Below are positions 31,275-33,877 of a DNA stretch of 64,000 nucleotides, piece after piece. Numbering within the stretch: position 1 is the first letter of the stretch; each line of letters opens with the position of its first letter. This DNA is from Acidobacteriaceae bacterium (GTDB lineage Bacteria > Acidobacteriota > Terriglobia > Terriglobales > Acidobacteriaceae): the NCBI GenBank assembly GCA_030041305.1, contig JASHOC010000276.1, positions 1 through 64,000 of the forward strand, written 5' to 3'. A program made the position numbers and the translations under genes. The notes beneath the pieces are model-generated. The model did no database searches. It was not told the origin of the DNA and saw only the letters and a list, made by a program, of their open reading frames with translations.

Positions 31275-31502
31275 ATGCCAAAGGAAAAGATTCATCCCCA
31301 ATACGCGGCGGTGCGCGTCGTGTGCGCCTGCGGAAACAATTTTGAAACCCGCTCGACGCACAAGGGCGACATTCACGTGGAAATCTGCTCGGTGTGCCAC
31401 CCATTCTTTACGGGCAAACAGCGGCTGGTGGATACGGCCGGGCGCGTGGAGCGATTCCGGCGGAAATACGCCAAGGCCGGCGAGGCGAAGGCGGCAAAAT
31501 AG
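31275..31502 (+). CDS. rpmE: 50S ribosomal protein L31
   Basis: 75-aa ribosomal protein of the large subunit, located at the central protuberance bridge. It is the zinc-binding (C+) type: '[15 protein letters not shown]' gives CxC and '[14 protein letters not shown]' gives CxxC. The order '[10 protein letters not shown]' to '[11 protein letters not shown]' is standard. It is monocistronic with an excellent terminator 28 bases after the stop. Confidence 0.98.
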
Positions 31503-31530: not shown

Positions 31531-31556
31531 GCCTCCGCCTCTGCGGAGGCTTTTTT
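31531..31556 (+). terminator. Intrinsic terminator of rpmE
   Basis: Perfect 8-bp stem GCCTCCGC/GCGGAGGC with a CTCT loop followed directly by TTTTTT. An A-rich stretch precedes the stem, so weak function in the opposite direction is possible. Confidence 0.92.
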
Positions 31557-31584
31557 CACGGTGGTTCCGTGCGAAAATGCGCTC

Positions 31585-31995
31585 ATGGGAGTTGCGCAAG
31601 TTCAGCACTACAGAAACCGTGCAAGAGATTTCCTCGGCGGGATGGATTTATTGCAAGACGATCTGGATGCATACGGTTACTCTTCGGCGCTGTTGAGCAT
31701 TCATGGGGCGATCTCCTATGCGGATGCACTGCGAGTTGGCACGGGCAGCTATACGCTTTCGTCGGACAATCACAGCCGGGCGGCAAGAGAATTAGAGTCG
31801 CTCCTTGACTCTCGTAGATTCGAACATCGGCAAGGCATCAAGCACTATAAAGTACTTCTCTCCCGCAAGAGCAGGATTTCCTACGCGGCCGAGACGGTGA
31901 GAAAAAACGAAGTCGAGGATATTGTCAAGCGCGCCAGGCGTTTCGCGAATTGGGCCGAGGCTGCGGGCAAAGCATTGAAGATTGCGGGGTGGTGA
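31585..31995 (+). CDS. HEPN-domain-like small protein (possible RNase or toxin)
   Basis: 136 aa. I start it at MGVAQVQHYRNRARDF; the ORF track runs backwards through the rpmE terminator. The sequence is all-helical. The first half 'ALLSIHGAISYADALRV' resembles the first HEPN helix pair, where residues feed small-molecule-like or RNA-binding grooves. 'RQGIKH' gives the R-x4-H pattern of HEPN ribonucleases, and the end 'VKRARRFANWAEAAGKAL' matches the last helix of that group. HEPN proteins often act as RNA-cleaving toxins in defence or toxin-antitoxin pairs. The stop is one base from the start of the next gene (TGAGATGA). The function is inferred from fold resemblance. Confidence 0.6.
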   Translation: MGVAQVQHYRNRARDFLGGMDLLQDDLDAYGYSSALLSIHGAISYADALRVGTGSYTLSSDNHSRAARELESLLDSRRFEHRQGIKHYKVLLSRKSRISYAAETVRKNEVEDIVKRARRFANWAEAAGKALKIAGW

Positions 31996-31996
31996 G

Positions 31997-32533
31997 ATGA
32001 CTGAAGTCCAGGAACAACAACTCGGTAGAGCCATGAATGCCGTGCAGGAGTTCCTGGTTCACAAGCTGCTCTTCCCAAAGGTCTATCTCGATGCTGAATG
32101 GAATGGCAATAAGGTGGCTGTACTTGCCATCGATCGTGCGGGCGTGGGCGATGTCCATGCCGTTCGGCTCGTACCGGTTGAAACGAACGGTGAGCCTGAC
32201 TGGCAATACCTGGTAATAAGAGCAGCCGCACTTGTAAACGACCAGATCGAGTTGCTGTCCACCTTGTCGACACAATTCAAGTACGTCGCTCTGATCAGTT
32301 TTTCGTCTGGAGTGGAACGATTCTATCCAAACGCTGAGTTAACCCGCAAGATGCTCGCAAAGGATGGCGTGGGCCGAATCGGGATTCTGCATGTGGATTT
32401 GACCGAAGATGATCCTTCGGTCCGGGTCATCCTCAAGGCCGAGCGCTTCCGCTCCTCGAAAGAGATTGTCGAGCTGGCTGACCGCTTCGTCGCCGAGCAC
32501 ACGGCCAACTGGGAGTTCCGCGAGGAGCTTTGA
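31997..32533 (+). CDS. Unknown partner gene of the HEPN-like protein
   Basis: 178 aa from the ATG of MTEVQEQQLGRAMN; the ORF-track TTG start five codons earlier would overlap the HEPN gene. GGGGTGGTGAG precedes the ATG. Predicted alpha/beta fold: one N-terminal helix, then strands 'KVYLDAEWNGNKVAVLAID', 'GDVHAVRLVPVE', 'WQYLVIRAAAL', 'FKYVALISFS' and 'IGILHVDLTEDD', closing with helix 'KEIVELADRFVAEHT'. The early Asp-rich hairpin is reminiscent of PD-(D/E)xK nucleases but I do not see the ExK lysine. It is not the nucleotidyltransferase that usually pairs with HEPN toxins. Translationally coupled to the HEPN gene; role unknown, possibly antitoxin. Confidence 0.7.
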   Translation: MTEVQEQQLGRAMNAVQEFLVHKLLFPKVYLDAEWNGNKVAVLAIDRAGVGDVHAVRLVPVETNGEPDWQYLVIRAAALVNDQIELLSTLSTQFKYVALISFSSGVERFYPNAELTRKMLAKDGVGRIGILHVDLTEDDPSVRVILKAERFRSSKEIVELADRFVAEHTANWEFREEL

Positions 32534-32612: not shown

Positions 32613-33877
32613 ATGGCGCGCTGGGGCTTTACCGTGAAAAAGCACTGGGACAATCCCGTGGAGCACGCGATGCCCGCCGAGGGGCGGGTTGCGGCGGAGG
32701 TGCGCGTCGGCGCGGTTGCAGTGCGGCCGGCTACGGTGCTGGCGCCCATGGCGGGCGTCACCGATACCGTGTTCCGGCGTTTCATCCGGCACGCGAGCCT
32801 GTTCAGCAGAGAGCGGAGAACAGAGAACATAGATCAGGGGTCAGGGATCAGAGAGCCGCGACCGCGGAAGGTATTGAGGCGACCATCAGCAATGCGCAAT
32901 CGGGATGCGGGCTGCTGATGACGGAGTTCACCTCGGCGGATGGGCTGGCGCGGATGCGGGAGTCGAAGCGGCGGCGCTATCTAACGTTCTATGACGACGA
33001 GCACCCCATCGGAGCGCAACTGTTCGGGTCGAACCCGGCGACTTTGGCCGACGCGGCGCGGATCGTCGAGGAGACGGGCTTCGACCTGGTGGATTTGAAT
33101 CTGGGCTGCCCGGCCAAACGAGTAGTGGGATGCAACGGGGGGTCGGGCCTCTTGCGCGATCTGCCCGGGATCAGGGAAATTTTTCGCGCGGTGCGGCGGA
33201 CGGTGACGATTCCCTTCACCGTCAAGTTCCGGATCGGATGGAGCGATGGGCAGATTGTGTGCGTGGAGCTGGCGCGGATGGCCGAGGGCGAAGGACTGAA
33301 CGCGGTGGCGCTGCACGCCCGCACACGGGAGCAGGGCTACAGCGGCCAGGCGCGGTGGGAGTGGATTGCGGCGGTCAAGCAGGCGGTGAGCATTCCGGTG
33401 ATCGGCAATGGGGATATCCGCACGCCGGAGGACGCGGCCGCGATGGTGGCCGAGACGGGCTGCGATGGGGTGATGATCGGGCGGGCCGCGCCGGCGAATC
33501 CGTGGATCTTCCGGCAGATTGCGCAGTACACGGCGACGGGAACTTACGAGAATCCGACCATCGAGGACCGGCATGGGATGATCCGCACGTATTTCGAAAT
33601 GCTGGTGGCGGAGGAGCAGGCGACGCAGGAATTGCCCCGGGATGCGCGGCTCGGCGACCCGGTGGGAAAGATGAAGCAGTTTGCGACGTTGTTCACGCAT
33701 GGCGTGCCGGGCGGCGCCAGGCTTCGCGCGGCCATCTATCAGGCGCGCAGCGGAGCGCAGGTGCTCGACGAAGTCAATCGGTTCTTTGCCGCGCGCGCCA
33801 ACGAGAGCGCAGACGCCGAACCGCAGGTTGAAGGGGCGATCCAGTCCTGGCCGGATGCGGCGCTGGTGTGCGATTAG
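32613..33877 (+). pseudogene. tRNA-dihydrouridine synthase, reading frame broken at an inserted repeat
   Basis: Dus enzymes reduce uridine in tRNA D-loops with FMN and NADPH. The N-terminus, including the FMN-binding 'APMAGVTDTVFRRFIRH', is in the frame opened at 32613 (GGAGGGT just upstream). That frame stops at 32915-32917. The remainder ('SGCGLLMTEFTSADGLAR', 'DLNLGCPAKRVVGCNGGSG' with the catalytic Cys region, 'ALHARTREQGYSG', 'IPVIGNGDI', 'GVMIGRAAPANPWIF') is in another frame running to 33877. The switch lies between ~32810 and 32870, exactly where a GATCAGGGGTCAGGGATCAG phrase sits. So either the gene is inactivated, the frame is corrected by slippage, or the assembly has an error. The rest of the enzyme looks intact. 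Confidence 0.85.
32832..32851. repeat. 'GATCAGGGGTCAGGGATCAG' phrase inside dus
   Basis: Same low-complexity phrase as found in intergenic gaps at 5954-5976 and (inverted) 52321-52337, here inside a coding region at the point where the reading frame changes. Confidence 0.6.

Follow-up and report, generated by a model that had tools for sequence, protein, structure and literature searches.

Two small adjacent genes, lying between rpmE and dus in a contig of an Acidobacteriaceae bacterium, may form a toxin-antitoxin (TA)-like module in which a HEPN-fold effector encoded by the first gene (g1) is restrained by a nuclease-dead PD-(D/E)XK-fold protein encoded by the second (g2). The probability of this reading is put at about one half. 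The pair was studied in a stretch of 64,000 nucleotides (i.e. the window, positions 1 to 64,000 of JASHOC010000276.1), in which the following features were located.

31537–31550, + strand: terminator-like stem-loop of rpmE, followed by a T-run; parts the pair from rpmE
31570–31578, + strand: extended -10-like element (TGC-GAAAAT), 6 nt 5' of the g1 start codon
31585–31995, + strand: g1, predicted HEPN-fold protein of 136 aa (AlphaFold, pLDDT 94; Foldseek match to 2hsb, TM-scores 0.75/0.81)
31702–31704, + strand: H40 of g1, invariant (50/50 homologues)
31771–31773, + strand: H63 of g1, invariant (50/50); retained in MNT-partnered relatives
31828–31845, + strand: RQGIKH (R82–H87) of g1, singled out in an earlier sequence-only reading; not conserved (R82 in 6/50, H87 in 37/50)
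31867–31884, + strand: K95-x4-Y100 of g1, invariant (50/50 each); retained in the MNT-partnered relatives L196, L204 and L205
31997–32533, + strand: g2, predicted PD-(D/E)XK-fold protein of 178 aa with the triad lost (AlphaFold, pLDDT 92.9; Foldseek; residue census)
32117–32119, + strand: A41 of g2, at the position of the motif Asp (D in 45/53 homologues)
32165–32173, + strand: R57-L-V59 of g2, replacing E-x-K (DEK triad in 13/53 homologues and 0/21 of the window's clade)

Both genes are co-directed and are separated by one base (TGA-G-ATG), with rpmE (31275–31502) and its terminator-like stem on the 5' side and dus on the 3' side, an arrangement that the sequence-only reading had described correctly. 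A single copy of g1 is present in the genome from which the window derives. Comparisons of close homologues gave dN/dS values of 0.09–0.27 for both genes, i.e. purifying selection; this and the conservation of the adjacent genes across genera indicate that both encode functional proteins and are not chance ORFs. The dus gene of the window (32613–33877) is itself frameshifted: relative to an intact relative used as reference, residues 1–100 are encoded in frame 3 (32613–32915) and residues 67–421 in frame 2 (from 32804), which may reflect a genuine disruption or an assembly error.

Most of the relatives whose upstream regions were inspected contain a GC-rich hairpin 5' of g1 that is similar in kind to the stem-loop of rpmE. 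No consensus sigma-70 site was returned by a general promoter scan. Elements of the form TGnNAnAAT, ending 5–8 nt before the g1 start, were found in 15 of 51 distinct upstream regions as compared to 0.2% in shuffles, the 51 regions including kin and hence not being independent observations. The spacing of this -10-like element would place the transcription start on or close to the g1 start codon and so produce a leaderless g1 mRNA; given such a start, translation of g2 would occur by coupling to g1.

The AlphaFold model of g1 is a five-helix bundle and is matched best in the PDB by HEPN proteins, namely 2hsb (AF0298), 4nqf, 1wol, HepT and the HEPN domain of human sacsin. Foldseek E-values for these matches were weak (best 0.012) and the probability was 1.0 for the top four; in a sequence search, the HEPN family PF05168 matched weakly to three of 40 g1 members (best E 0.065). 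The predicted model thus has the four-to-five-helix fold of the HEPN superfamily and, on this structural basis, g1 is assigned as a HEPN-fold protein, bearing out the earlier suspicion of a HEPN-like first gene; no placement outside HEPN was obtained. The Rx4-6H RNase motif is absent from g1. The sequence-only reading had taken RQGIKH as this motif (R-x4-H), which is literally there but varies among homologues, and the conserved residues lie elsewhere: H40, H63, G84, K95 and Y100 are each invariant in 50 of 50 distinct homologues. K95-x4-Y100 is proposed, from this residue pattern, as the counterpart of the canonical motif. HEPN families without Rx4-6H are listed in the literature (PMC3710099), and its absence from g1 weakens the claim of a canonical RNase while leaving fold membership unaffected. 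As K-x4-Y differs from the canonical motif, RNase activity of g1 is not assured.

For g2, which the sequence-only reading had described as an alpha/beta protein that could not be placed, a placement was obtained by structural matching. The AlphaFold model presents the order helix, three strands, helix, strand, i.e. the alpha-beta3-alpha-beta core of the PD-(D/E)XK fold, and the top Foldseek matches in the PDB were SPO1766 (3dnx; 2.4e-4), which we take to be a member of the MmcB-like group, and SfsA (4dap; 7.5e-4), with modest TM-scores of 0.32–0.51 for these two. Further matches were PaqCI, EndoMS, Cdn1, Cas4, YaeQ and XisH, and acetyl-CoA carboxylase entries also occurred among the weaker ones. 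No match to an MNT nucleotidyltransferase was observed, in agreement with the earlier claim that the second gene is not the usual partner of HEPN. The catalytic D...(D/E)-x-K is missing from g2 of the window, where positions 41, 57 and 59 are A, R and V. Complete triads were present in Humisphaera (L150), one Sorangium (L159) and 11 acidobacterial members, making up the 13 of 53 homologues, and were absent from all 21 members of the well-supported clade that includes the window. Mapping of triad states onto the tree required at least six changes, four of which are forced by starred branches. The tree by itself gives no direction for these changes; as DEK occurs in Humisphaera and in one Sorangium, it is simpler to assume that the triad is ancestral and was lost repeatedly. 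On the predicted structure, g2 is thus regarded as a PD-(D/E)XK-fold protein whose nuclease triad has been lost in the lineage of the window.

The distribution of the pair was examined using profiles built from nine homologues to search 398 genomes of the window's family. The g1 gene was detected in 43 genomes (~11%). All of these also contained g2, which was present as a remnant in one further genome (44 in total). In each family locus fetched, unless a contig end intervened, g2 followed g1 directly, the two genes overlapping or standing apart by a few bases. A scan of GTDB genomes, for which a single g1 sequence gave no matches and profiles were required, yielded 34 loci, some on the same contigs as the family search, all in the order g1 then g2 and including Sorangium, other Deltaproteobacteria and the planctomycete Humisphaera. 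The loci L161 and L162 are on records titled Rhodanobacteraceae and Verrucomicrobia, yet their contigs (G588 and G521) fall in the window's family by the genome search, probably because of differences in naming or binning. Damaged copies were also observed (one with a stop, several split and one with only the end of g2), some of which may be explained by assembly errors. Homologues of the two genes are thus always neighbours, as expected from the earlier proposal of a coupled pair, and combine the obligate adjacency with the patchy, mobile distribution by which TA modules are recognised. That proposal had also held the pair to be undescribed, in line with which no Pfam or NCBIfam family was found for either gene at curated cut-offs and PADLOC gave no match at all. 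Matches to undecaprenyl synthase and heavy-metal chelation were far below cut-off, were contradicted by the folds and were rejected. Single-sequence searches of PHROGs and the PDB with g1 and g2 gave no useful matches; no carriers of g2 were found in phages, viral contigs or plasmids, and none of g1 in viral contigs.

The rpmE|dus junction is the site of the pair in most acidobacterial carriers, and rpmE was followed by dus without the pair in 24 of 26 sampled non-carrier genomes of the family. In one pair-less genome of the same genus (G103; L116, ~1860–2190), rpmE and dus are separated by a different small ORF of ~110 aa, and this junction may host other cargo too. Two genomes of one genus (L017 and L090) contain an extra copy of the pair between trpC and trpF, a few bases from each, and in Bryocella elongata the pair is inside a gcv cluster. 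Of 28 splits, 16 are common to the trees of g1 and g2, as compared to three to four shared with the dus tree, and a concatenated tree of the pair contradicted nine of 13 well-supported splits relative to dus; because of this conflict, simple vertical descent alongside dus was rejected. Within single genera (genus labels g1, g6, g20 and g128), two deep lineages of the pair are found at this same site. These trees are read most naturally as transfer with replacement at a fixed junction, the alternative being long coexistence of two ancient lineages with differential loss.

The g1 profile also reached relatives in two other Acidobacteriota families (L196 and L197), whose upstream neighbour encodes a wHTH-nucleotidyltransferase protein (PF01909, PF18765), and a tblastn search with L196 detected relatives on Rhizobium and Rhodococcus plasmids, again behind a wHTH-MNT gene. 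H63 and K-x4-Y are kept in three of these four distant relatives (L196, L204 and L205a); L197 keeps H63 and lacks K-x4-Y in the frame read. As the distant relatives directly follow wHTH-MNT genes, g1 is tied to the HEPN-MNT layout, and its partner appears to have been exchanged between lineages in a direction that we infer. The Rhodococcus plasmid (L205, 2297–5877) contains a tandem of two nucleotidyltransferase/HEPN-like pairs, which are separated by an IS5 transposase; in the second pair, the HEPN-like ORF is longer and has a diverged C-terminus.

In Sorangium So ceGT47 brxC and pglX of a BREX locus flank the pair (brxC-g1-g2-pglX); this is the one recognised defence system among the loci examined, such that a defence island is not the general setting. 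This locus and the swapping of two deep lineages at one site within genera would suit a stand-alone abortive-infection pair, in which g2, whose fold is of a DNA-binding type, recognises a nucleic acid or protein of the phage and switches on the HEPN protein g1, providing immunity without an addiction module; precedents are the HEPN RNases beside catalysis-lost PD-(D/E)XK domains in CoCoNuT (PMC11090510) and the HEPN and PD-(D/E)XK auxiliaries of BREX (PMC12839542). However, the acidobacterial copies (at rpmE|dus, trpC|trpF and gcv) are outside defence islands, the remaining distant loci have guaA, leuC and further genes unrelated to defence in their vicinity and PADLOC returned no match, and this explanation is considered unlikely. 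Less probable again is a domesticated RNA-binding or RNA-processing pair devoid of toxicity, such as a translation regulator. HEPN domains lacking the canonical motif may bind RNA without being catalytic, as in MtlR (PMC3710099), and the usual neighbours, rpmE and dus, are translation and tRNA modification genes, but carriage by about a tenth of the family, empty sites in close relatives, the trp and gcv copies (which indicate no fixed tie to translation genes) and a pair phylogeny at odds with dus all speak against such a role. That g2 is an ancestral nuclease effector regulated by g1, of which the window's lineage retains a degenerate version, agrees with the full D-E-K of some homologues and with the position of g1 as first gene, as in an antitoxin-first layout, but is the least probable explanation, given that 40 of 53 homologues have lost the triad and the pair has nonetheless persisted under purifying selection with invariant g1 residues.

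In the TA-like reading, g1 would be the HEPN effector, probably an RNase that acts on cellular RNA and is presumably toxic, with His40/His63 and Lys95/Tyr100 as a putative alternative site. Having lost its nuclease chemistry in the window's lineage, g2 would be a binding protein that presumably keeps g1 inactive and may free it upon sensing nucleic acid or another cue. The conserved polar residues of g1 and the dispensable catalytic residues of g2 make g1 the better candidate for effector and g2 for restrainer or sensor. This reading is favoured by the obligate adjacency, the HEPN fold and the MNT-linked distant relatives, by a putative g1 site retained in all 50 homologues compared while the g2 triad was repeatedly lost, and by the conflict between the pair and dus trees, the patchy presence with broken copies and the one BREX-embedded pair. 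It is disfavoured by the non-canonical K-x4-Y, by L197 without this motif, by the weak g1 Foldseek E-values, by the single defence-system locus and by the lack of plasmid or phage carriers of g2. The HEPN-first order and a mechanism that we infer hold confidence near one half.

More tentatively, the pair may represent a new class of HEPN TA or immunity system in which a PD-(D/E)XK protein replaced the MNT antitoxin, loss of the nuclease site marks conversion to a pure inhibitor or sensor, and spread occurs as alleles are replaced at a single junction of core genes. If true, this class would provide a second route for restraining HEPN toxins besides AMPylation by MNT, an instance of a toxin switching antitoxin between related lineages, and a natural series of partners, from DEK-bearing to triad-less, for tracing how a nuclease fold evolved into an antitoxin. 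The module is missed by current defence and TA scans because it has no curated Pfam/NCBIfam or PADLOC match.

Among known systems, the pair resembles HEPN-MNT (HepT-MntA, type VII), in which HEPN is the toxin (PMC7641770, PMC11586414), in having two small genes, one of HEPN fold, and distant g1 relatives with wHTH-MNT neighbours. It differs in that the partner has a PD-(D/E)XK fold and is not a nucleotidyltransferase, in that no AMPylating partner is present at the pair of the window, and in that the HEPN gene lacks Rx4-6H and comes first, whereas the antitoxin gene is first in MNT-HEPN pairs (PMC3710099). HEPN proteins of the AF0298 and AbiV type lack the His of Rx4-6H, retain its basic residue and possess a further conserved His upstream (PMC3710099), a description that fits the residue pattern of g1, whose top structural match is AF0298; g1 differs in having no sequence match to them and another partner gene. 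The g2 protein shares the alpha-beta-beta-beta-alpha-beta topology of the PD-(D/E)XK superfamily (MmcB-like SPO1766, SfsA, NucS/EndoMS, XisH), and some homologues retain D...E-x-K, whereas g2 of the window has A/R/V for D/E/K and no Pfam match above cut-off. CoCoNuT types II and III combine HEPN RNases with PD-(D/E)XK domains that have lost catalysis (PMC11090510) but are large McrBC-type GTPase systems as compared to the stand-alone two-gene unit described here, and BREX loci carry HEPN and PD-(D/E)XK proteins as auxiliary genes (PMC12839542). A literature search, with most subscription papers outside its scope, found no description of the g1-g2 unit; both folds, and conflict systems built on HEPN as a general concept, are already known.
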